A model generated the notes under the pieces. That model did no database searches. It saw nothing but the letters and a program-made list of their open reading frames with translations, and was not told where the DNA came from. A stretch of 10,660 nt of DNA from a bacterium (lineage in GTDB: Bacteria; UBP15; UBA6099; DSWB01). Shown here piece by piece: positions 1 to 10,660 of the stretch; positions within the stretch are counted from its first letter, which is position 1, and the number at the start of each line of letters is the position of its first letter. The stretch is from assembly GCA_020061125.1 (NCBI GenBank), contig JAGUYV010000297.1, positions 1 to 10,660 of the forward strand, read 5' to 3'. Made by a program: the position numbers and the translations under genes.

Positions 1-124
1 GCGGCGTTGCCGCCACCGGCGCTGCCGCCCGCTGCAACTCGGCCCTGGTGATGCGTCCGGCCCGAATTGCAGCAATATCCCCCCGCCTCACCAGCCAGCA
101 ATCACTGTTCAACAACTGTTTCAT
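1..124 (-). CDS. Possible divergent small ORF, 5' end only (runs off left edge)
   Basis: An ATG on the minus strand (plus positions 124-122) opens a frame that stays open to the window edge, about 41 codons. It begins MKQLLNSDCWLVRRGDIAAI, then becomes Arg/Ala rich. An in-frame TGA lies directly upstream of the ATG, so this would be the true start if the gene is real. There is no convincing Shine-Dalgarno sequence before it, and the third codon positions are only moderately GC rich. The same stretch is also partly open in two plus-strand frames, which end at 146-148 and 150-152, so it could instead be the 3' end of an upstream plus-strand gene or simply non-coding. No family is recognised. 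If real, 125-217 would be a divergent promoter region. Confidence 0.2.
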   Translation of the reverse strand, partial: MKQLLNSDCWLVRRGDIAAIRAGRITRAELQRAAAPVAATP

Positions 125-133
125 TCAGAGGCG

Positions 134-162
134 TTGCAGAAATCATGAATGATTGGTAACAT
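134..162 (+). promoter_or_regulatory. Weak candidate sigma-70-type promoter for the operon
   Basis: TTGCAG (134-139) and TAACAT (157-162) are separated by 17 bp, the usual spacing for housekeeping promoters. The -35 box matches the consensus at about half its positions and the -10 box at four of six. Transcription would start near 169, leaving a leader of about 50 nt before gene 1. TATAGT at 166-171 is a better -10 box but has no -35 partner at proper spacing. This is the only promoter-like region found ahead of the four genes, and it is a weak call. Confidence 0.25.
141..154. promoter_or_regulatory. Perfect inverted repeat, operator-like
   Basis: AATCAT-GA-ATGATT is a perfect inverted repeat with 6-bp arms and a 2-bp spacer, in an AT-rich patch of an otherwise GC-rich region. 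It sits between the candidate -35 and -10 boxes. This placement suits a dimeric repressor site. No regulator is encoded in the window, and the repeat matches no operator I can name. Confidence 0.35.
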
Positions 163-203
163 ACCTATAGTTTGTCAACCCGGACAAGCGCAGTGACTCG
201 ACT

Positions 204-210
204 GGGGGAG
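204..210 (+). promoter_or_regulatory. Ribosome-binding site for gene 1
   Basis: GGGGGAG lies 7 nt before the ATG at 218, which supports that start. Small stem options surround it: TTGTC (172-176) with GACAA (183-187), and ACTC (196-199) with GAGT (208-211), the second of which would partly cover the site. Confidence 0.6.
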
Positions 211-217
211 TGCGCGG

Positions 218-2047
218 ATGCGTGACCGGTCCGCTTGGATTTCGAGACGGGCAGCGGCGTGGTGTGCTTGCGCCGGACTGCTTCTTCTGCTGCTCCCAGC
301 GCATGCGCTGGCCTGGCCCACGTCGGCCCAGTGGATCCCCGTTTACAAATCCGGCCTCCTCCTTCAGGACAGCAACAGCGACACCAACGGATCCCGCAAC
401 GTGGTGTCCGACTCGAACAATCCCGCCGCATATATGTACAACGACGGAACCTACTTCTACTTCCGTCTGCGCCTCGACCGCTCTCCCGCTGGAACCGGAG
501 GCCAGGGATACATGGAGCCATACGGGTGGGGCGTGGAAATAGATTCCAATATGGATCCGCGCAACTACGAATGGCTGATAATCGTTGACGGCATATCGCA
601 GTCGGAGACGATTTCCCTGTGGCAGAATACGGTGCAGAGAACGGTCGGTGATCCCGGAGACCGCGCGGAAATCAGAACCGCTTCCGTTCCCTTGGCCGGT
701 AACTTCCAGATTTCCGCAGCAAACACGGCTTTCAACGCCAGCCAGGATTACTTCCTTGACTGGCGGTTCCCCTACGACACCTTCAAGCAGTCATCCGGCA
801 TCACGGACACGACCCCCATCCGGTTGTTCTTCGGCAGCTCAAGCAGCGCCGACGCGCTCACGGAAAACGGCGCGGACCTTGTTGGGGCGTCCGATTTGAT
901 TGCCGGTTTCTCTGATTATGTGATCCCTCTTGAGCGCACGCCAACCACGGGCAGTGTGATGTTCGTGTCCAACCTTGCCGGGACCGGCGACGTTACGAGC
1001 ATTACGCAGGGCGACACGATCTTCATCAAGGTCACGGACGGCGACATGAACCTGCTCGACACATCGGTTCAGACGCTGACCGTTGTTCTCACAAACCAGA
1101 ACGGGGATACCGAGACCGTAACCCTCATGGAGACAGGAGTGAATACCGGGGTGTTCACGGGGTCCAAGGCCACGGTCTCCGCGCTGCCCGTTGCCGGGGA
1201 CGGAACGTTCCAGATAAGGCCCGGCGAGACCATAACCGTCACCTACATAGACCGGATAGATGCGAACCGCAACACCAACCAGTCCCGCACGGATACGCTG
1301 ACCGTTGGCGGGCCTTCGATATCCGTGAGCAAAACCGTGAGCGCAGCGGCGGCAGTGGCCGGAGACGTGCTCACATACACCATCACCATCACCAACAGCG
1401 GCAGCGGCGACGCCTGGCTGAACACAATCCAGGATAACCTTTCCGCAGGGTTCTCGTATGTGCAAAACTCCGCGGCGGGCCTCACCACTTCCAATCCATC
1501 CATCAGCAACCAGACGCTGATCTGGAACGGCTCGTGGATCGTGCCCCGGCGCGTGGGAGCGGTCAATGGGAGCGTCACGCTGTCGTTCCAGGCCGTGGCC
1601 GGAGGCATCGCGGGTATTCAGTACAACAGCGCGGTGGCGAGCGGCGCGAACTTCAGCCCCGTGTCCACGGGCGGAACCGCGGCCGTGACCATGTCGGCGC
1701 CGGTCATGACACTCACCAAGCAGGTGGCCGGGGCGTCCTATACGCCGGGCAGCGTTTTGACCTATTCCGTGATATACCGCAACACCGGGAGCGCGAGCGC
1801 CACCAACTTCATCATCACCGATGCCGTGCCGGACAACGCCACCTATGTGCCCGGTAGTCTGCGCATGGGCAACGCGGCATCCACATTCGCAACCGCCGCA
1901 GTCAAAACCGATGCCGCGGACGCAGACGAAGCCGAGGTCGTGGAGCGAAACATTTTGTACCGGGTCAACCTGATTGCTCCGGATGATGGCGTTGCCGGAG
2001 CGGGCGCGGATGAAGGCATTGTCTATTTCCAGGTCACCATTGATTGA
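218..2047 (+). CDS. Secreted DUF11-repeat surface protein with N-terminal beta-rich domain
   Basis: Predicted secreted protein of 609 aa. Residues 1-32 form a Sec signal peptide with an Arg-rich start, a Leu-rich core and likely cleavage after AHALA before WPTSAQ. Residues 33-240 are a Tyr/Phe/Trp-rich beta domain (NDGTYFYFRLRLD at 75-87, then YGWGVEID at 102-109) with a faint resemblance to CBM9/DOMON-like binding domains. I do not claim a ligand. Residues 244-363 are a beta-sandwich with the motif ETGVNTGVFTG (305-315), homologous to a domain in gene 4. Residues 366-491 and 494-609 are two DUF11 repeats (GDVLTYTITITNSG; GSVLTYSVIYRNTG and YVPGS). It ends on the last DUF11 strand, FQVTID, with no anchor or sorting signal. 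Its only cysteines (16 and 18) lie in the signal peptide without a lipobox. It is the first gene of the cluster, 12 bp before gene 2. The start is set by the GGGGGAG site. The coding call is firm; the role (surface structure or adhesion) is inference. Confidence 0.93.
   Translation: MRDRSAWISRRAAAWCACAGLLLLLLPAHALAWPTSAQWIPVYKSGLLLQDSNSDTNGSRNVVSDSNNPAAYMYNDGTYFYFRLRLDRSPAGTGGQGYMEPYGWGVEIDSNMDPRNYEWLIIVDGISQSETISLWQNTVQRTVGDPGDRAEIRTASVPLAGNFQISAANTAFNASQDYFLDWRFPYDTFKQSSGITDTTPIRLFFGSSSSADALTENGADLVGASDLIAGFSDYVIPLERTPTTGSVMFVSNLAGTGDVTSITQGDTIFIKVTDGDMNLLDTSVQTLTVVLTNQNGDTETVTLMETGVNTGVFTGSKATVSALPVAGDGTFQIRPGETITVTYIDRIDANRNTNQSRTDTLTVGGPSISVSKTVSAAAAVAGDVLTYTITITNSGSGDAWLNTIQDNLSAGFSYVQNSAAGLTTSNPSISNQTLIWNGSWIVPRRVGAVNGSVTLSFQAVAGGIAGIQYNSAVASGANFSPVSTGGTAAVTMSAPVMTLTKQVAGASYTPGSVLTYSVIYRNTGSASATNFIITDAVPDNATYVPGSLRMGNAASTFATAAVKTDAADADEAEVVERNILYRVNLIAPDDGVAGAGADEGIVYFQVTID
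947..1306 (+). other. ETGxxTGVF beta-sandwich domain, copy in gene 1
   Basis: Residues 244-363 of gene 1 line up with residues 437-553 of gene 4: GDTIFIKVTD with GDTVCVQVTD, and ETGVNTGVFTG with ETGVSTGVFRG, followed in both by a short strand and a closing DTLTV/DTVLI. Domains with this motif occur in large bacterial and archaeal surface proteins. It has no catalytic signature and is probably a structural beta-domain. Confidence 0.7.
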
Positions 2048-2059
2048 CCGGGGGGCGCG

Positions 2060-2566
2060 ATGAGAATCACACCATTGTACATGGCGGCGGCAGCCGCACT
2101 ATTGATTGCGGGCGCGGCGTTCGCGGAACAGGGCAAAGCCCAAAATCCGCTGGCGCTTGAAATCAAGGCTGCACGCGAAGTCAGGATCGTCAAGAACGGC
2201 ACGACCCTCACCGCTCTGGAACCCGCCGACGAGATGCGTTCCGGCGACATCATCGTGTACACCCTCAACTACAAGAACCGGGGCAAGGAACCGCTCAAGG
2301 GCGTGAAGCTCACGGACCCGCTGCCCGAAGGGGTTTCATTCATCCCCGGCAGCATGTTCGGAGACAAAGCGGCCGTAACCTTCAGCATTGACGGCGGCAA
2401 GACCTATCATTCGCATCCGGTGAAATATAAAGCCACTATGCCGGACGGCTCCGTGAAAGAACGCGAGGCCACGCCGGACATGTTCACGCACATCCGCTGG
2501 GTTCTCAAAGACACCTTGAAACCCGGCGCGTCCGGGCAGGTAGGGTTCAAAGCCAGGGTCAAATGA
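2060..2566 (+). CDS. Small secreted single-DUF11 protein
   Basis: Protein of 168 aa. Residues 1-22 are a signal peptide (MRITPLYMAAAAALLIAGAAFA, likely cut before EQGKAQ). The rest is one DUF11-type domain with the hallmarks SGDIIVYTLNYKNRG (61-75), LTDPLPEGVSFIPGS (84-98), FSIDGGKTY (108-116) and THIRWVLKDTLKPGASGQV (143-161). The stand-alone 160-170 aa form with FSIDGGKT and THIRW motifs is a recurring compact version in Gram-negative bacteria. It has no cysteines, anchor or catalytic motif. The start follows gene 1's stop by 12 bp; a run of six G (2050-2055) lies 4 nt before the ATG as a poor ribosome site, so translation may rely on coupling to gene 1. Unlike the other three products it is Lys-rich and compact, which would suit a soluble periplasmic or capping subunit, but that is inference. 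Confidence 0.92.
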   Translation: MRITPLYMAAAAALLIAGAAFAEQGKAQNPLALEIKAAREVRIVKNGTTLTALEPADEMRSGDIIVYTLNYKNRGKEPLKGVKLTDPLPEGVSFIPGSMFGDKAAVTFSIDGGKTYHSHPVKYKATMPDGSVKEREATPDMFTHIRWVLKDTLKPGASGQVGFKARVK

Positions 2567-2586
2567 CTCCATTATCAACTGGAGAG
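2567..2586 (+). promoter_or_regulatory. Stem-loop over the ribosome-binding site of gene 3
   Basis: CTCCA (2567-2571) can pair with TGGAG (2580-2584) across an 8-nt loop, covering the GGAGAG site (2581-2586) that serves the ATG at 2592. The stem begins immediately after gene 2's TGA (2564-2566), so a ribosome finishing gene 2 would melt it. This is consistent with translational coupling. The stem is only 5 bp, so chance cannot be excluded. Confidence 0.35.
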
Positions 2587-2591
2587 AAATC

Positions 2592-4358
2592 ATGATAAAG
2601 CACACACACAATACAGGCACAACGCGAGCGGGAGGTCTGGCGCGCGCGCTTGCCGCGCTTGCCCTGGTTCTGCTGATGCAAAGCCCGGCGCTTGGCGCGG
2701 GCACCGCGGCCGGAACCGTGATAACCAATCAGGCCTATGCGGACTATCAGGATCCCAACGGGAACGACATGACCCGGGTTTTCTCAAACAGCGTCACGAC
2801 CATAGTGAGCCAGGTTGCGGGCGTGGATGTGGTGCCCGCAACGAGCTCCAAAGTCGGGGCCGCCAACTCCACGGTCATGTATCTGCTGGAGATATTCAAC
2901 ACGGGCAACGGAAACGACGTGTATGATTTCGCTTACGCCGTGACTGCGGGATGGACTCCCACCGCCGTGCAGTTCTACCATGACGTGAACAACAACCACA
3001 CATTCGACGCAGGCACGGACCCGATCGTGTCCTCTCCTTATGTTACCGGAACAGTTGCCGCGGATGACGACTTCGATGTGTTCATGTTCGTCACGGTTCC
3101 CGCGGGCGCGGCCGACAACTCGCAGTCCGTGATCCGCGTAACGGCCACGAGCCGGTTTGACGGGACTGTGACGGATTTCGGCGTGTACACCATCACCGTG
3201 TCCTCCGCCGTGGTCACGGCCATCAAGTCCCATGTGCCATCGCGGCCCAAGCCCGGCGACACCGTTACTTACACACTCACCCTCACCAACAGCGGAACGG
3301 CGAATGCGTCCAATATCGTGGTCACGGATGCGATTCCCGGAAACATGACCTTCGTGCCCGGCAGCATCAGCATCAGCGGCGTTTCCAAAACCGATGCCGC
3401 GGATGCGGACACCGCGGATTACAACGCCACCACAGCGGGCGCGGTTACTGTAAGTCTTGGAACCCTCAACAGCGGCGGATCGGCCACCTCGTTTTCTTTC
3501 CAGGCGCGCGTGAACGCCGCGGTTGCGGCCAACACGGCAATCACCAACCAGGCCTCCATCAACTACAACTCCGGACTGAACGCACTAAGCAGCACATCCA
3601 ACGGCGACACATTATTTGTTGGAACCAATGCCGCGGCTGAAATTGCCGCCACCACGACATCCGCATCGGCGGATCCCGGAGATACGGTCACCTATGCGTT
3701 CACCGTGACGAACAACGGCAACGATTCCGACACCTTTGATCTCACCACAGGCTCCAGCCGCGGCTGGACATGGACTATCTGGGTGGACGCCAACGGGGAC
3801 GGTATCGCGGGCAATGATGGAGATTACCGGCTCACGGACTCCGACGGAGACGGCGTCATAGATACCGGGTCTCTCACAGCCGGGCAGAGCCTGTCGCTCC
3901 TGGCCGTGGCCACGGTTCCCGCAGGCACGCCGGACCGCGCCGTGGATGTCCTCACCATCACGGCAACTTCATCCAACGACACCGCCATATCGGACTCGCA
4001 GTCGTTTTCCACCACGATCACCTCGCCGGTGCTCACATTGAGCAAAACCGTGACCCCGGCGGGATCGCAGCCGCCTGGCACCACGCTCACCTACACCATC
4101 ACGGCGACAAACACCGGCACGGGCATTGCGACCAGGGTGGTCATAACCGATGTGGTGCCCGCGAACACCACCTATGTGGCCGGCTCCATCCTCACTGGCC
4201 CCACGGTTGCCGGGCTTACGGCGCGCACGGATGCCAATGACGGTGATGGCGCGCTGTACGATTCAGGAACAGATGCGGTTATCGTAGGCGCGGCGGGCAA
4301 TGAGTCCATCGGCCCCGGCGGCACACTGCTGCTGCGGTTCTCGGTCACGATTAACTGA
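2592..4358 (+). CDS. Secreted protein with duplicated Asp-loop + DUF11 modules
   Basis: Protein of 588 aa. Residues 1-36 are a signal peptide (core ALAALALVLLMQSPALGA). Residues 36-72 carry the motif AGTVITNQAYADYQDPNGND...TTIV, also found at the mature N-terminus of gene 4. Two A-B units follow: A (76-207) and A' (347-477) share the pattern of a beta-domain, a W-containing strand, an Asp/Asn loop and TVPAG; B (208-344) and B' (478-588) are DUF11 repeats (GDTVTYTLTLTNSG; GTTLTYTITATNTG). Asp-rich loops DVNNNHTFD (131-139), DANGDG (399-404) and DSDGDGVID (416-424) resemble EF-hand or thrombospondin-3 calcium loops. It has no cysteines, anchor or catalytic motif and ends in FSVTIN, much like gene 1's FQVTID. 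The start is supported by GGAGAG 5 nt upstream. It is probably a calcium-stabilised rod-like surface subunit (inference). Confidence 0.93.
   Translation: MIKHTHNTGTTRAGGLARALAALALVLLMQSPALGAGTAAGTVITNQAYADYQDPNGNDMTRVFSNSVTTIVSQVAGVDVVPATSSKVGAANSTVMYLLEIFNTGNGNDVYDFAYAVTAGWTPTAVQFYHDVNNNHTFDAGTDPIVSSPYVTGTVAADDDFDVFMFVTVPAGAADNSQSVIRVTATSRFDGTVTDFGVYTITVSSAVVTAIKSHVPSRPKPGDTVTYTLTLTNSGTANASNIVVTDAIPGNMTFVPGSISISGVSKTDAADADTADYNATTAGAVTVSLGTLNSGGSATSFSFQARVNAAVAANTAITNQASINYNSGLNALSSTSNGDTLFVGTNAAAEIAATTTSASADPGDTVTYAFTVTNNGNDSDTFDLTTGSSRGWTWTIWVDANGDGIAGNDGDYRLTDSDGDGVIDTGSLTAGQSLSLLAVATVPAGTPDRAVDVLTITATSSNDTAISDSQSFSTTITSPVLTLSKTVTPAGSQPPGTTLTYTITATNTGTGIATRVVITDVVPANTTYVAGSILTGPTVAGLTARTDANDGDGALYDSGTDAVIVGAAGNESIGPGGTLLLRFSVTIN
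2817..4355 (+). repeat. Internal A-B-A'-B' duplication in gene 3
   Basis: A module 2817-3212 and A' 3630-4022, with B (DUF11) 3213-3623 and B' 4023-4355. The A copies match in order: opening beta-strands, NTGNGNDVYDF against NNGNDSDTFDL, a GW strand, an Asp loop, and FVTVPAG against VATVPAG, then an ITATS-like strand. The copies are clearly diverged at DNA level, so the duplication is old. Confidence 0.75.
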
Positions 4359-4376
4359 CGGCGGAACAGGATTCTG

Positions 4377-7300
4377 ATGCGCAAAGCGGCAATGCCAACC
4401 CCGAGACATGCGCTGCACGCGGCACTTGCCGTTGCGTTTGCGCTGCTGTTCTGGCAAACAAGCGCATGGGGGTTGAGCGCCACGGCCGGGACATCCATTC
4501 TTAACCGGGCGTCCCTGTCATATCGCGACGGGGGGGGGAATCCCGTTCCCGGCGAATCGGCCACCGCGGAGACTGTGGTCTCCGGCGGTCCGGTGCTGAT
4601 GTTGACCATAACGGAAAGCTCGGATCCCGTGGCCATGGGCGCGGCGCTGGTATACACTCTGGCCTACGCAAACACGGGCAACGCGGATTCCACGAACACG
4701 GCGCTGGCGCTGGCCCTGTCATCATTTGTCACCTACCAGTCCAGTTCAGTCGGGGGAACTCATGCCGCGGGTGCGGGCGGCGGCACAGTATCCTGGACGC
4801 TAGGAACCCTGGCGCCGGGCGCGTCCGGAACGGTTACGGTCACGGTCCTGGTGAAATCCGCGGGCGACCCATCGGGCATCGCCAACGGATCCGTCATTGT
4901 TGCCAGCGGAACGCTGACCTCCAATGAAACCAATGCCGCGGCCAATGCATCCACGACGGTAGGGTCCGCGCCCAACCTTGGGATTGCCATGACCGGCACT
5001 CCGGGCGTGGTGCAGCCCGGCGGGACCATCCTCTACACCATCAGCTACAGCAACACCGGGAACCAGACCGCAAATAATGTTTCCATTCGCACCCAGTTGC
5101 CACCGGGCACGGCCCTGGCGGCCGGAACCATATCGGGTTCCGGCGCGGAGCAAAACCGCGCGGTCTCCTGGGTTCTGGGCGCTCTTGCGCCGGGCGCGTC
5201 CGGCTCCGTGTCTTTTCAAGTCACGGTATCGCCCATCGCCGAATCGGGCAGCTCGCTGACCAATGATGCGGTGATAATCAGCAACGAGCTTGGCGTCATC
5301 CTCTCCAATCAGGTCACGACCTTTGTTCGCGCCGCGGCGCTCGCCGTGACAAAGACCGGTCTGGACACAAGACCGGGCGAGAACATAACCTACACCATCA
5401 ATGCCCAGAACCAGGGGATGCTGAACCTGACAAATGTGATTATCCGCGATCCCTTGCCCGCGGCCACAACTTTTGTCAGCGCGGACCAGGGCGGCGTTCT
5501 GCAGGGCGGCGAGGTTGTCTGGACCGTGGGCAGCCTGGGCGTGGGCGAGGAGTTCACAGCCACCCTGGTGTTGACTGTTTCGCCAACCGCGGCTCCCGGC
5601 GCGGCGCTTTCCAACACCGCATCGGTTTCATCCACGGAAAGTCCGGCGCAGAGCGCGACAAACTTGACCACCGTGGCCGCGCGCACCCAGGGCCGGATCG
5701 AGTTTTACACCAGCGCATGGCAGCGCGCCAGAAGTTATCATTCCGGAGACACGGTGTGTGTCCAGGTCACGGACTACGACCAGAACCGTGACGAGACCTC
5801 CGTTGAGACGGTCAGGGCGAAGCTTCAGAATGCGGCGAACAGCGACACGGAGAACTTGACGCTCACCGAGACCGGCGTTTCCACGGGCGTGTTCCGCGGA
5901 TGCGTGCAGAGCGTTTCCACTGCCGGAACCAATGACGACAGCGCCATCAGCGTATCCACCAACAGTTTTATGCGTGTGTATTACACGGACGCGCTCGACC
6001 CGATCCCCATGGTGTCCGACACTGTGCTCATAGATCCTTTCGGAATCGTGTTCGACTCGCAGACCGGAGCGCCCGTGCCGGGCGCGGTCGTCACGCTGAT
6101 GGACGCGGCAACTGGTCTGCCCGCGGCATTGCCAAACAATCCCAACACGAATGCGATCCAGTCCAACCCATACCCGGCGACCGCGGCGGACGGTTTCTTC
6201 CAGTTCGAGTTCGTGCCCGCAGGCAGCTATTACCTCGATGTGTCACCGGGCGGCACATACACATATCCGTCGCTTGTGCCGGACAGCAGCCTGCCGCAGG
6301 GCTATATAATCGGCACGGGATCAAAGCGTGAAGTGTTCACCCTTACCGCGGGTATGGAACCGTTGCACCTTGATGTTCCGGTGGACCCGCCGGTGGTGGA
6401 GCTTCTGACAGTCACCAAATCCGCGGACCGGACCAACGCTTCCATAGGCGACATCATTCGCTACACCATCCGGGTTACCAACCGCGGTGCCCTGCCCGTG
6501 AACCTGCCTGTGGTCACGGACGTGCTGCCGCACGGCATTCAGTATCTGCCCGGCTCCTCGGCCCTGAATGGCGCGGTCATCGCTGATCCCACGGGCGCGC
6601 CAGGCAAAACCATAGCGTGGAGCATGACCGGCGCCATCCTTCCGGGCGCTTCCATTGAGATCATGTTTTATGCCGTGGCGGGCGCGGACAGCAGCCGCGG
6701 CGATGGAAAGAACACGGCCTACGCGCGCGGGCAGGCCGGGACCAAGACCGTCACCTCCAACAATGCATACCACACGCTGCGCATCACCGAGGGCGTCTTC
6801 ACTTCCGATGGAACCATCCTGGGCCGCGTGTTTCATGACGCAAACGGAAACGGCTTGCAGGACAAGGGCGAGCCGGGCATCGCGGGCATTGAGCTTTATA
6901 TGGAAAACGGAACCCGTGTGACCACCGACAGCCGCGGGCTGTATTCCATCAACTCCGTGACGCGCGGCACGCATTTGCTCGTGGTGGATGACAAGAGCCT
7001 TCCCGCGGGGCTGTCGCCCGCGCAGGGATCGCACCGCGACATGGGCGCGCCGGGTTCTCGATTCGTGGATATGGCCGCAAGCGGGCTGGCCCATGCGGAC
7101 TTTCCGCTTCAAGGCCGCATCGAGGAGAACACTCCGGATCCGCGTGGCGGCTTGGAGGCGGCGCCCATCTCCCCGCAGCCGGAGGATATCCCTCTCGAAG
7201 AGAGGATCATGAACATGACCCCGGCGCTTGAAATCCTTGAACCAGAGGATCGCGCCGTGGTTTCTTCAACACGCACCAGAATCATGATCAAGGCCCCATA

Positions 7301-10241
7301 CGACGCAGACCTGCAAATGCTGCTGAATGGGGAGCCGGTCAGCGTGAGCCGCGTCGGCCGCCGCATATTCAACAAGGATATCAATGTCGCGGTGTACGAG
7401 TTCGTGGGGCTGGCCCTGCTGCCCGGCGAGCACAACTCCATTGAAGCCCAAACCCTCGACGCCAGCGGCGCAGTGACCGCTTCAAAAGCAGTCGTTGTGA
7501 CCGCGTCGGGAGCGCCGGACCGCATCCTGATTCAGGCGGACTCCGTTCCCGCGGACGGAACCGGCGCAGCTACGGCGCGCGTGTCCGTTCTAGACCGGAA
7601 CGGCAACCCCATCGGATACGCGGGCATTGTCACGGTGACCGTTTCCGCCGGGGAGATTCTGGACCTCGACATGAACGGAGGGGAGCCGGGCGTTCAGTTG
7701 CTATACAGGGATGAAACCGTATTCAGAATCAAAGCGCCCACGCAGCCCGGCCCGGTCCGCGTATCCGTGAGCTTCGAAGATCTCACCGCAGGACAGGATG
7801 TCTATTTCACCAGGGATATGAGCGACGCCATCGGGTTCGCGTTCGGTGAGATCAAAATCGGCCGGGGCCGCGCACGGGGCAGTACGGAATACCTCAAATC
7901 CCGTGACAACGAGTGGTTCGACAATGGATCGTATTCCGGCGGCCGCGCTGCCTGGTTTGTTAAACGGGATCTGGGAAAGGGCGTGTTTCTCACTTCTTCG
8001 TTCGACTCCGCTAAGCGCAAACGCTATGACCTCATGCGGGACGCCGAATACCGGGATGATTCGGAATCCCTGTATCCCATCTACGGCGACGACAGCGAGA
8101 CCGCTTTCGAGTCCCAGTCCCAGAGCAAGGCCTATGTACGGCTGGACAGAGGCCGGTCGCGTTTGCTTTACGGAGATTACCAGACCGCCTTCACGGACAC
8201 CAGACTGGGCGCTTACACGCGCACCTTCAACGGCGCGAACCTGGAGATAAACAGCGCGGATTATCAGCTCAAGGCGTTTTCCGCATTCACGGACCGTTCA
8301 CAGGTTGTGGACGAAATGCGCGGCCGGGGCGTGTCGGGTTATTACAACTTGAGCAAAACCCCTGTCGTGGACGGAAGCGAATCCATCGTCATCCAGACGC
8401 GCGACAGAAACCTGATCACAAGGGTTGTTGATTCGCAACCCATGGTGCGATGGATTGATTACACAGTGGATTATGAGCGCGGCGCGATCCTGTTCAAAGC
8501 GCCGGTGCCGTCCCACGATGCGGAGCTGAATCCCGTTTTCATCGTCGTGTCCTATGAGACCGAAGGTGGCGCGCGCAAATACTTCATATACGGCGCGCGC
8601 ATGAAGTACTGTTTCAACAAGTATCTTACGCTCGGCGCGACGCAGGTCACGGACGAGCAGGATGCGGGCGCACAGCATTTGAAGGCGTTTGATGCGGCCA
8701 TCACGCTCCGGCCAAGAACAGTATTCCGTTACGAGCAGGTCAAGACGCAGCGCTTGTTCAATGTCAGCGGCGTGAACTCCCTGCAGAGCGGAGACGGCTG
8801 GCTGTGGGAACTGGAGAGCCGCGAACGGGACGATTTGACATGGAAGGTTTATCAGAGATCAACCAATGACTGGTTCGGCAACCCGTCGGCATCGGAAATG
8901 CAGCGCGGCATGCAGCGGCAGGGCTACGAACTGGAGTTCCGCAAATCCGCGCGCCTGTCATACTCAAGCAGCTATTTTGTGAGCAAAGACACCGTCAACG
9001 AAATGGACCACCGCAGCCATTCCGTGGGCATGAAATCCATGACCGAATCTTCGGAGCTTGACATCGAACTGCTCCGCGAAAGCTCCAGCGACGCTTACAT
9101 TTCGTCCGCTAGCGCAAACACAAGGAATCCGTACGACGACGCCGAGGTCACGCCCGGCAAGACCGTCGCACTGCGCACGGCTCTGCGCAAGCGCCTGCGC
9201 CCAAGGCTTGATCTCACCGCATCTCACAGGCGGGATATTCAATACAACAGGCACAACATCACCACGGCGGGACTGGAGTTCCGGCTGAACCAAAGCGGCA
9301 AGCTGTATGTGCGAGAGGAGTTGTGGGCGTTCGAGGACCGCAGCGGTCGCCGCACGGTGTTCGGCGCGGACGCACAGGTGAACCGGAACACCAGCGCTTT
9401 CAATGAATACCGGATCGAGAACGGCGCGGGCGGTCAGCGCATCCAGCGCGCCATCGGCCTGCGGAACGCCTTCACCTGGGGCCGGGACCTCACGGGGAAT
9501 GTGTCTGTGGAGAATCTGTCCACAATCAGCGGCGCGGAGCGGGACAGCGAACCCGATGCGTTTGCGCTGGCCGCAGCCGCGGAATATCTACCAAAAGATC
9601 GCATTAAGATCTCAAGCCGCCTGGAATACAGGGACGCCACCGCCGAAACCTCGCGCCTCGCGGAACTGGGCGTGGCGTGGAAAGCGCATCCCGATTACTC
9701 GGCCATGGCGCGGCAGCGGTACTATGAAACAACATTCAGCAACGGTGCGCAGAGAACGGCTGCAAGCACGCTCCTGGGCCTGGCATGGCGCCCGGCGCAC
9801 ACGAGCAGATACAACGGCCTCATGCGCCTGGAGTTCAAGGCCGACCGCAGTTCCCCGTCCGTGCAGAACGCAACACCGCGCGCGCGCATCTTCGCCATCG
9901 AAGGTTCATACCATCCCGTGACCCGGTTCACCCTCACGGGCAAGTACGCATTCAAAACCGCGCGCAGCGGAAACTGGGATTCCCGCACAACCATGGTCGC
10001 CGCGCGCGTGCTCTATGACATCGGCAGCCGGTGGGACATCAGCGGAGAATACCGCGCGCTCACAAGCCGCACCATCAGCGCGGAGTCTCGCGGCGGCGCT
10101 CTTGAGCTTGGATACCAGGCAATCCGAAATCTCTGGCTTTCCGCAGGGTACAGCTACGACGCATTCGACACCGACCTCACCGGCGACAGCTACTGGGGCA
10201 AAGGCCCTTACATGAAGATGAGATTCAAGATCATGAACTGA
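4377..10241 (+). CDS. Giant modular outer-membrane beta-barrel protein with DUF11/Ig-like passenger
   Basis: Protein of 1954 aa, by far the largest product. In order: signal peptide 1-32 (ALAVAFALLFWQTSAWG); N-motif 33-69; DUF11 repeats at about 71-195, 199-317 and 320-435; ETGVSTGVFRG domain 437-553; carboxypeptidase-regulatory-like domain 555-668 (TGAPVPGAVVTL); fourth DUF11 675-805; SdrD-B-like domain 808-912 (FHDANGNGLQDKGEPGI); Pro/Glu linker 913-946; Ig-like 947-1043; Big_1/invasin-like 1047-1146; then about 800 residues of alternating amphipathic strands to the end, closing with YMKMRFKI as outer-membrane barrels do. Two cysteines (461, 509) lie in the ETG domain and one (1412) in the barrel. 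ATG 4377 has AGGA 5 nt upstream; it lies 18 bp after gene 3. Likely the outer-membrane anchor of the system, possibly also its export pore (inference). No catalytic motif is seen. Confidence 0.94.
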   Translation: MRKAAMPTPRHALHAALAVAFALLFWQTSAWGLSATAGTSILNRASLSYRDGGGNPVPGESATAETVVSGGPVLMLTITESSDPVAMGAALVYTLAYANTGNADSTNTALALALSSFVTYQSSSVGGTHAAGAGGGTVSWTLGTLAPGASGTVTVTVLVKSAGDPSGIANGSVIVASGTLTSNETNAAANASTTVGSAPNLGIAMTGTPGVVQPGGTILYTISYSNTGNQTANNVSIRTQLPPGTALAAGTISGSGAEQNRAVSWVLGALAPGASGSVSFQVTVSPIAESGSSLTNDAVIISNELGVILSNQVTTFVRAAALAVTKTGLDTRPGENITYTINAQNQGMLNLTNVIIRDPLPAATTFVSADQGGVLQGGEVVWTVGSLGVGEEFTATLVLTVSPTAAPGAALSNTASVSSTESPAQSATNLTTVAARTQGRIEFYTSAWQRARSYHSGDTVCVQVTDYDQNRDETSVETVRAKLQNAANSDTENLTLTETGVSTGVFRGCVQSVSTAGTNDDSAISVSTNSFMRVYYTDALDPIPMVSDTVLIDPFGIVFDSQTGAPVPGAVVTLMDAATGLPAALPNNPNTNAIQSNPYPATAADGFFQFEFVPAGSYYLDVSPGGTYTYPSLVPDSSLPQGYIIGTGSKREVFTLTAGMEPLHLDVPVDPPVVELLTVTKSADRTNASIGDIIRYTIRVTNRGALPVNLPVVTDVLPHGIQYLPGSSALNGAVIADPTGAPGKTIAWSMTGAILPGASIEIMFYAVAGADSSRGDGKNTAYARGQAGTKTVTSNNAYHTLRITEGVFTSDGTILGRVFHDANGNGLQDKGEPGIAGIELYMENGTRVTTDSRGLYSINSVTRGTHLLVVDDKSLPAGLSPAQGSHRDMGAPGSRFVDMAASGLAHADFPLQGRIEENTPDPRGGLEAAPISPQPEDIPLEERIMNMTPALEILEPEDRAVVSSTRTRIMIKAPYDADLQMLLNGEPVSVSRVGRRIFNKDINVAVYEFVGLALLPGEHNSIEAQTLDASGAVTASKAVVVTASGAPDRILIQADSVPADGTGAATARVSVLDRNGNPIGYAGIVTVTVSAGEILDLDMNGGEPGVQLLYRDETVFRIKAPTQPGPVRVSVSFEDLTAGQDVYFTRDMSDAIGFAFGEIKIGRGRARGSTEYLKSRDNEWFDNGSYSGGRAAWFVKRDLGKGVFLTSSFDSAKRKRYDLMRDAEYRDDSESLYPIYGDDSETAFESQSQSKAYVRLDRGRSRLLYGDYQTAFTDTRLGAYTRTFNGANLEINSADYQLKAFSAFTDRSQVVDEMRGRGVSGYYNLSKTPVVDGSESIVIQTRDRNLITRVVDSQPMVRWIDYTVDYERGAILFKAPVPSHDAELNPVFIVVSYETEGGARKYFIYGARMKYCFNKYLTLGATQVTDEQDAGAQHLKAFDAAITLRPRTVFRYEQVKTQRLFNVSGVNSLQSGDGWLWELESRERDDLTWKVYQRSTNDWFGNPSASEMQRGMQRQGYELEFRKSARLSYSSSYFVSKDTVNEMDHRSHSVGMKSMTESSELDIELLRESSSDAYISSASANTRNPYDDAEVTPGKTVALRTALRKRLRPRLDLTASHRRDIQYNRHNITTAGLEFRLNQSGKLYVREELWAFEDRSGRRTVFGADAQVNRNTSAFNEYRIENGAGGQRIQRAIGLRNAFTWGRDLTGNVSVENLSTISGAERDSEPDAFALAAAAEYLPKDRIKISSRLEYRDATAETSRLAELGVAWKAHPDYSAMARQRYYETTFSNGAQRTAASTLLGLAWRPAHTSRYNGLMRLEFKADRSSPSVQNATPRARIFAIEGSYHPVTRFTLTGKYAFKTARSGNWDSRTTMVAARVLYDIGSRWDISGEYRALTSRTISAESRGGALELGYQAIRNLWLSAGYSYDAFDTDLTGDSYWGKGPYMKMRFKIMN
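4530..4538 (+). repeat. Homopolymeric G9 tract inside gene 4 coding sequence
   Basis: Nine consecutive G encode Gly52-Gly54 in the N-terminal motif of gene 4. It is the longest single-base run noticed in the window and lies in a loop where the equivalent part of gene 3 has DPNGND. Loss of one G would bring in TGA at 4597-4599; gain of one would also end in a premature stop several hundred bases on. Confidence 0.9.
5685..6035 (+). other. ETGxxTGVF beta-sandwich domain with cysteine pair, copy in gene 4
   Basis: Residues 437-553, homologous to residues 244-363 of gene 1. Cys461 (codon 5757-5759) and Cys509 (codon 5901-5903) replace Phe269 and Ser316 of the gene 1 copy. They are the only cysteines in the pre-barrel part of the mature protein, so an intradomain disulfide is likely. 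Confidence 0.7.
7815..10238 (+). other. Predicted giant outer-membrane beta-barrel domain of gene 4
   Basis: Residues 1147-1954 form a run of 9-14-residue alternating polar/apolar strands joined by short turns and longer charged loops; reading by eye gives about 36-38 candidates. Motifs in order: LYPIYGDDS (1232-1240), YVRLDRGRSRLLYGDYQT (1253-1270), GSESIVIQTRDR (1333-1344), DYTVDYERGAILFKAPVP (1361-1378), NPVFIVVSYE (1385-1394). The last stretch, on a non-barrel-like insert, recalls modules in very large barrels such as SprA of the type 9 secretion system. The strand count is an estimate and the SprA likeness is from memory of motif style. Confidence 0.65.
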
Positions 10242-10352
10242 TGCAGTACGATTTGTCACTCCCCGGATTTCCCCCTGTACAGCGTCTCCATATGCCCGTC
10301 TCAATACGCACACCAGCCAGTATGCTCGTTCGTGATTCCGCTCCATGACAAC

Positions 10353-10366
10353 TCGCCCTAGGGCGA
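10353..10366. terminator. Perfect palindrome, possible operon terminator
   Basis: TCGCCCTAGGGCGA is a perfect 14-bp palindrome 111 nt after gene 4's stop; as RNA it could form a 5-bp stem TCGCC/GGCGA with a CTAG loop. The T-rich run (10375-10382) starts 8 nt later instead of directly after the stem, so it is not a standard intrinsic terminator. A protein-binding site is equally possible. Confidence 0.3.
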
Positions 10367-10386
10367 AATAATCGTTCTTTTTCTCC

Positions 10387-10404
10387 GAGGGTGGCTACCC
10401 CCTC
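10387..10404 (+). other. GC-rich stem-loop in the leader of the downstream gene
   Basis: GAGGG (10387-10391) pairs with CCCTC (10400-10404) over an 8-nt loop and extends by CC/GG with one bulged T. A GGGGCCCC palindrome and TTTT follow (10406-10418). It could be a weak terminator or leader structure; I recognise no riboswitch class in 10380-10500. Confidence 0.25.
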
Positions 10405-10482
10405 TGGGGCCCCCTTTTCGAGATCGGCGTTCGGTGCCCACCGGGTCGTTTATCCACGGTTTGGCATCAACGAGTTCATCGG

Positions 10483-10491
10483 AAAGGAGGT
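10483..10491 (+). promoter_or_regulatory. Strong ribosome-binding site for the downstream gene
   Basis: AAAGGAGGT is a near-perfect Shine-Dalgarno sequence 10 nt before the ATG at 10502. It is much stronger than the sites in front of genes 1-4 and fixes the start, even though the frame is open upstream to a TGA at 10346-10348. Confidence 0.8.
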
Positions 10492-10501
10492 CTGTTTCAC
10501 C

Positions 10502-10660
10502 ATGCCCGAAAACAGGATGATGTGCTGCCGCGAGGAGGTGTTCGCCAGCGTGCTGGCGCTGCGGCGGGCCGGGTACGATGCACGGCGCGCGGGCGACGGG
10601 TTCGTCGTGACCCACCCCGAGCGCGGCGCGTTCGCGTTCAGCGGATCGAGGCTGCTGCCC
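10502..10660 (+). CDS. Hypothetical protein, N-terminal part (runs off right edge)
   Basis: 53 codons open to the window edge, beginning MPENRMMCCREEVFASVLAL and continuing RRAGYDARRAGDGFVVTHPE. The strong AAAGGAGGT site and almost exclusively G/C third positions support a real gene. There is no signal peptide: the start is charged, has two adjacent cysteines (residues 8-9) and an amphipathic helix-like stretch (EEVFASVLALRRAGYDA), so the product is probably cytoplasmic. No family recognised. It lies 260 bp after gene 4 behind its own leader and has higher third-position GC than the cluster, so it is probably a separate transcription unit unrelated to surface assembly. Confidence 0.75.
   Translation, partial: MPENRMMCCREEVFASVLALRRAGYDARRAGDGFVVTHPERGAFAFSGSRLLP

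Follow-up and report, generated by a model that had tools for sequence, protein, structure and literature searches.

SprA, the translocon of the type 9 secretion system (T9SS), is a single-chain barrel of 36 strands (PMC9581022, PMC10994853). The barrel of the Deinococcus protein SlpA has 30 strands, and according to a prediction by the same authors, D. radiodurans has three barrels of 38 strands (PMC9388160). The DUF11 domain, since renamed CLIPPER, was found by crystallography to contain a Lys-Asp-Asn isopeptide bond in a fibrillar adhesin domain (PMC12617251). Here, we compare with these systems a locus from a bacterium of the GTDB phylum UBP15, contained in a window of 10,660 nucleotides, that is, the whole stretch of DNA that was analysed (assembly GCA_020061125.1, contig JAGUYV010000297.1, positions 1 to 10,660, forward strand). 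Its open reading frames (ORFs) give four genes, g1 to g4, all co-directional on the + strand, each starting with a Sec-type signal peptide recognised by eye and each carrying DUF11 domains (Pfam). We report that g4 very probably ends in a giant outer-membrane barrel of 40 strands, and that the ends of the DUF11 proteins look complementary, as would suit subunits of a surface fibre. The host draft genome has 4.1 Mb and is ~79% complete; its phylum is small, with 7 genomes in the set used.

The C-terminus of g4 is predicted to form a 40-strand barrel

A first-pass annotation of the window, made from the sequence alone, had proposed a large barrel in g4 and an AlphaFold model with a strand count as a check. 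AlphaFold2 was run on g4 residues 1039-1954 (window positions 7491-10238, 916 aa) with a 34-sequence alignment that includes 33 relatives. The resulting model, hereafter the window model, has a mean predicted local distance difference test (pLDDT) score of 80.6 and a predicted template modelling (pTM) score of 0.73. As assigned by DSSP, it comprises an immunoglobulin (Ig)-like domain at model residues 11-107 followed by 40 strands, each of 7-19 residues, from 114 to 915; the only break in the series is one small inserted domain at ~278-347, between strands 8 and 9. An Acinetobacter celticus relative with 26% identity to g4 was modelled separately; this second model also has 40 strands and the insert in the same place (pLDDT 77.1; the pTM of the two models is 0.70-0.73).

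In the family average, hydrophobicity alternates along the strands, with a mean |even-odd| difference of 0.367 compared to 0.161 +/- 0.019 (maximum 0.224) in 2000 column shuffles. Both this alternation and the window model agree with the first-pass annotation, which had read the ~800 C-terminal residues (7815-10238) as a continuous series of amphipathic strands. Its view of an unusually large single-chain barrel holds, while its count of 36-38 strands by eye was slightly low. The placement it described, C-terminal to a multi-domain DUF11/Ig stalk, is likewise borne out by the Pfam DUF11 repeats (161.7 bits over 4 stretches, above the gathering score) and the modelled Ig domain ahead of strand 1, and no close match to an ordinary family of 22-26 strands was found.

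Two further features bear on closure. Loops leading from odd to even strands are longer than even-to-odd turns (p = 0.003, calculated without the insert), which fits an even-numbered barrel with periplasmic termini. In structural alignments, several 16-strand porins span the seam of the window model: the match extends over residues ~110-914 and includes the first and the last strand of the porin. Because strands 1 and 40 must then be neighbours, these alignments support one closed barrel. We consider the evidence that the g4 C-terminus would form a single closed barrel to be good but indirect.

As predicted, the g4 barrel exceeds every solved single-chain barrel that we found in published reports. 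The earlier prediction of unspecified 38-strand Deinococcus barrels (PMC9388160) lowers its novelty; with these and the 30-strand SlpA at hand, SprA is not alone at the extreme where the first-pass annotation had placed it. The best Foldseek matches of the window model are Deinococcus SlpA/SDBC (E 1.9e-9). The FimD/PapC ushers are among the best structural matches of both models (Z 15-17), although a root-mean-square deviation (rmsd) of 6-13 Å makes this a modest superposition. SprA appears among the structural matches of the Acinetobacter model (Z 13.4) and lies outside the VIA top-50 of the window model. Since PDB sequence searches with the whole-family profile and with an insert-region profile found no barrel, the links to SprA and to ushers rest on genome-derived SprA proteins and on structure.

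One module of the barrel is related to SprA

The family profile matches proteins of ~2000-2200 residues that are T9SS SprA by NCBIfam TIGR04189 (up to 836 bits). More specifically, hhalign aligns SprA with the family over model residues 276-425, that is, the insert and the strands after it (probability 97.2, E 4e-11), and g4 itself matches the NCBIfam SprA model in the same module (E 4e-5). The latter match covers model positions 613-690 only and, at 20.6-21 bits, does not reach the TIGR04189 equivalog cut-off of 200 bits. SprA_N (PF14349), which is present in true SprAs, was detected neither in g4 nor among the 25 families listed for 34 members. Judged by these profile comparisons, the g4 barrel is a distant SprA relative in one module of ~130 residues; for the rest of the barrel, homology cannot be demonstrated. 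The first-pass annotation had called the protein unlike SprA, which is half true: the insert and following strands are homologous, but the full model and SprA_N are not matched, and for these two reasons g4 was rejected as a T9SS SprA.

A separate observation concerns the insert motif (GSE..DYxVDYxxGxIxF, window 8322-8531), which bears a weak likeness to the phage tail tube/distal tail models NF052337 and TIGR02217 (NCBIfam).

The barrel family is widespread and its loci are conserved

No family in Pfam, NCBIfam or PHROGs covers the barrel region. Some members weakly match generic barrel families, and relatives are publicly annotated as 'DUF11 domain-containing', 'hypothetical' or 'TonB-dependent receptor'. 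A scan of 84,980 GTDB species genomes gave 204 pattern matches, 185 of them encoding a relative; the best 80 of these 185 include Desulfuromonas, Nitrospirae, Acidobacteria, Burkholderiales, Acinetobacter, Photobacterium and many Sphingomonadales. Further members reside on plasmids of cyanobacteria, rhizobia, Rhodobacterales and Deinococcus. The first-pass annotation had suggested a new anchoring or export device for this cluster; such a function is plausible, but with 185 relatives in the species scan and others on Deinococcus and cyanobacterial plasmids it is not peculiar to the cluster. Taken together, that interpretation is partly supported, being right in outline, wrong on isolation and partly wrong on SprA.

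Because a Deinococcus ficus protein matches the family profile (E 2.8e-49), the unnamed 38-strand D. radiodurans proteins (PMC9388160) may belong to the same family. The window genome itself also encodes a paralogue of the barrel, within a 2986-residue open frame. A literature search, for which subscription papers and supplements were outside reach, found no account of the g4 barrel family or of a split DUF11 polymer. We also noted a second group of large unnamed proteins (~1100-1250 aa; L111, L112, L104, L105, L097, G000:C394), several per genome in the phylum of the window, which shares barrel-model residues 191-392, the insert and flanking strands (hhalign E 2.6e-16).

The neighbourhood of the barrel gene is conserved. 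Of the 55 loci whose upstream sequence is long enough, 48 have a larger DUF11 gene resembling g3 upstream, and 30 also have a small gene of ~160 residues with a single DUF11 domain, resembling g2. Stalk (DUF11 and SdrD_B) and barrel are encoded by separate adjoining genes in Deinococcus ficus and Synechococcus NIES-970, where the genes of a small and a large partner come first. Conversely, locus L078 joins in one chain, in this order, a g1-like region, repeats, DUF11 and the barrel, that is, tip, stalk and barrel; this fused protein (1578-10481, 2967 residues) has 4-5 near-identical repeats of ~115 residues (residues ~380-850), whose similarity suggests recent variation in stalk length.

Downstream of the barrel gene, Acinetobacter has an OmpA-family gene and another DUF11 gene of ~960 residues (L117 11848-12930; L011 10455-11525), and one cassette copy sits on a mobilizable plasmid. 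Other downstream proteins, a parallel beta-helix in Deinococcus (L118 10462-14223) and proteins of ~650-750 residues in Sphingomonadales (L026 10451-12409), likewise have an acceptor-like '..FRxxI/V' strand at their end, and the cassette may for this reason hold further subunits.

The DUF11 proteins have complementary ends

Partner proteins encoded beside the barrel end in '..pGxxxxFxVxI*' (the asterisk being the stop) and so stop before the last DUF11 strands. This truncated end, which we call the acceptor, was found in 67 of 75 larger and 28 of 30 small partners compared to 1 of 70 barrel proteins. After the signal peptide, larger partners and barrel proteins begin with a segment of the form 'AGTxIxNxAxxxYx..SNxVxT', which we call the donor. 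A donor hidden Markov model (HMM) matches at least 35 of 70 barrel proteins, none of the 30 small partners and 71 of 75 larger partners, the last figure being partly circular since the HMM was seeded from the larger partners themselves. In 444 other ORFs it has 21 matches, all in partner- or barrel-sized ORFs of the same loci.

The intact internal DUF11 domain of g3 serves as an internal control: the donor HMM also matches its end, from residue 315 onward (E 9.5e-4), right after the '..FxVxV' strand. With a donor appended, the Pfam DUF11 match of an acceptor, which otherwise stops at profile position 53-85, reaches 100-104 of 114, and the donor-completed g3 acceptor covers positions 2-104, comparable to the intact domain. 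In g1, the C-terminal DUF11 is of acceptor type (...GIVYFQVTID*) and the N-terminus has no donor segment. By sequence, then, g1 and g2 would only accept, g3 would both donate and accept, and g4 would only donate, and these complementary ends suggest the roles of tip, shaft and base: g1 is a candidate fibre tip, g2 a candidate tip or cap and g3 a candidate shaft subunit.

The isopeptide signature of DUF11 is divided in the same way, with Lys and Asp in the acceptor and Asn in the donor. Both Lys and Asp are kept in 32 of 42 alignable larger acceptors as well as in g1, g2 and g3 of the window, and the Asn position is present in the g3 and g4 donors. Intermolecular covalent joining is accordingly possible at many junctions, though not at all.

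Several side searches were set aside. A spacing test of tail and lead lengths was not used, being unreliable as long as the site of signal cleavage cannot be fixed; a phmmer search with a single DUF11 domain found no true relative in the PDB; and a paper on type 11 secretion system cargo with 'DUF11' matches mainly concerns DUF1194.

Features of the window

The coordinates of the genes and their parts are collected in Table 1. No Pfam family matches the N-terminal ~240 residues of g1 (window 218-950, WPTSAQWIPVYKSGLLLQDSNSD...), even with E relaxed to 10; by eye they look like a beta sandwich of carbohydrate-binding type, and in L078 a relative of this region is part of the barrel chain.

Table 1. 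Genes g1 to g4 and their parts in window coordinates.
Feature	Position	Strand	Description
g1	218..2047	+	Exported, 609 aa; unique N-terminal domain, then Ig-like and DUF11 domains
g2	2060..2566	+	Exported, 168 aa; one DUF11 domain without last strands, acceptor only
g3	2592..4358	+	Exported DUF11 protein, 588 aa; N-terminal donor segment, C-terminal acceptor-type DUF11
g3 donor segment (AAGTVITNQAYADYQDPNGN..SNSVTT)	2709..2825	+	Donor-HMM match, residues 40-78
g3 internal DUF11, intact (internal control)	3207..3626	+	Last strands match donor segment; Pfam profile 6-98/114
g3 C-terminal acceptor-type DUF11	4011..4355	+	Ends ...LLLRFSVTIN*; Pfam profile 2-56/114 alone
g4	4377..10241	+	1954 aa: signal peptide, donor segment, DUF11 repeats, CarboxypepD_reg/SdrD_B, invasin-type Ig, predicted giant barrel
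g4 donor segment, mature N-terminus (ATAGTSILNRASLSYRDGGGNP)	4485..4580	+	Donor-HMM match, residues 37-68, 28.8 bits
g4 Ig-like domain, Invasin_D3/Big_1-like, just before barrel	7521..7811	+	Below Pfam cut-off; AlphaFold2 model
g4 predicted 40-strand outer-membrane barrel	7830..10235	+	Gene residues 1152-1953; AlphaFold2 and DSSP, homologue model, amphipathicity, loop parity
g4 plug-like inserted domain, strands 8/9 (VVDGSESIVIQTRDR..DYTVDYERGAILFKAPV)	8322..8531	+	Both AlphaFold2 models
g4 module homologous to T9SS SprA (insert and following strands)	8316..8765	+	hhalign; TIGR04189; HMM search of SprA proteins

Discussion

We propose that g4 is the base of a surface fibre, its giant barrel acting as exit pore and anchor and being fused to a DUF11/Ig stalk, a reading whose chances we hold to be even. 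All four gene products would cross the inner membrane via Sec. The N-termini of mature g3 and g4 would then supply the strands missing from the C-terminal DUF11 of g1, g2 and g3, such that donor-strand complementation would join tip (g1 or g2), shaft (g3) and base (g4) head to tail. Joints would perhaps be locked by isopeptide bonds, as most large subunits carry the CLIPPER triad split over acceptor and donor. The usher matches and the SprA-related insert suggest a wide pore with a gate, which would let folded Ig domains through and also hold the fibre in the membrane: in principle the pore would be wide enough for such domains, and in the resting state the plug-like insert would block it, similar to ushers and SprA-type translocons. 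A single closed barrel in vivo, an outward-facing stalk, export, polymerisation, covalency and gating are all inferred here.

Beside the circularity noted above, several points weigh against this proposal. Canonical topology sets the N-terminus of the barrel, hence the stalk, in the periplasm, and outward passage is an assumption. About half of the barrel N-termini fall below the donor-HMM threshold, some of them being truncated or having wrong predicted starts. In the chimeric domains, a clear gain in bit score is seen for g2 alone (28.3 to 38.2), and the scores for g3 are flat. No dedicated periplasmic chaperone was identified, and no chaperone gene was seen. Finally, many of the small g2-like proteins of alphaproteobacteria have Asn in place of the catalytic Asp (VVTNPLP; for example L031 3688-4170), so covalent joining cannot be general; g2 of the window has Asp.

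The topology is the starting point of the main rival, which we judge unlikely: an envelope tether, in which the stalk would be periplasmic as in SlpA/OmpM, the barrel would anchor the outer membrane, and the DUF11 partners would form a periplasmic or S-layer-attached scaffold. An even strand number with an N-terminal stalk gives this orientation by default, the top-ranking Foldseek hits are SlpA/SDBC, and in Acinetobacter the gene after the barrel is of the OmpA family. However, no SLH domain, coiled coil or other peptidoglycan-binding domain was matched in g4, and DUF11/CLIPPER and SdrD_B are stalk domains of surface adhesins (PMC12617251).

A single chain with an N-terminal passenger and a C-terminal barrel also recalls an autotransporter, the barrel exporting its own stalk alone and the DUF11 partners being independently secreted adhesins that merely share the operon. 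We find this improbable, since stalk and barrel are separate genes in Deinococcus and Synechococcus and the partners are conserved neighbours with complementary ends. As a classical autotransporter (T5a) g4 was rejected, having no match to an autotransporter family and 40 predicted strands instead of 12.

The models might over-close what are really two smaller barrels, a barrel plus a sheet, or a homo-oligomer. Their pTM of 0.70-0.73 and an rmsd >18 Å in whole-length superposition on known barrels leave room for this, but two divergent sequences give the same 40-strand layout, strands 9-40 run without a long linker domain and structural alignments span the seam, which makes it quite improbable. 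A large uptake porin or TonB-dependent-like transporter, brought to mind by the annotation of rhizobial-plasmid relatives as 'TonB-dependent receptor', is highly implausible, and g4 was rejected as such a receptor, given no Pfam match to TonB plug or receptor domains, 40 predicted strands instead of 22, and neighbours that are adhesin-like rather than transporters.

Most likely, the window holds a new variant among giant outer-membrane barrels; a new fibre system is a realistic chance. An undescribed class of surface fibre with split DUF11/CLIPPER subunits, an autocatalytic Lys-Asn covalent lock and a 40-strand exporting and anchoring barrel of partly SprA-related ancestry is a possibility that we put forward tentatively. 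If true, chemistry of the SpyTag/SpyCatcher type would have in this fibre a natural counterpart encoded in genomes, with a wide spread that takes in Acinetobacter, Erythrobacter, Deinococcus and cyanobacteria. A common unnamed family of culturable genera (Acinetobacter, Photobacterium, Erythrobacter, Deinococcus) would then include the largest single-chain outer-membrane barrel, SprA-type ancestry would reach beyond the T9SS, and passage of folded, cross-linked Ig domains would explain so wide a barrel.

Four described systems come closest to g4. SlpA/SDBC also has a very large barrel, but one of 30 strands that is trimeric and combined with SLH and a coiled coil; g4 was rejected as an SlpA because it has no SLH match (Pfam). 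The ushers FimD and PapC have a domain inserted after an even-numbered strand, as the models predict for g4, have Ig-like neighbours with donor-type N-termini, and pass Ig subunits linked by donor strands. They differ in having 24 strands and their own N- and C-terminal domains, which are absent from g4, whose chain ends in the last strand. With no match of g4 to Pfam usher families at E<=1 and no C-terminal periplasmic domains after the barrel, a chaperone-usher usher was rejected. SprA/Sov is likewise a giant single-chain barrel and contains the homologous insert-plus-strands module, but it has 36 strands where g4 models 40, is a protein of at least 2000 residues compared to a g4 barrel region of ~800, and has a SprA_N domain where g4 has a fused DUF11 stalk. 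CLIPPER fibrillar adhesins resemble g4 in their tandem DUF11 stalk with the Lys-Asp-Asn signature; in the published adhesins the bond is intramolecular within single chains (PMC12617251), whereas here the domain looks split over neighbouring proteins.

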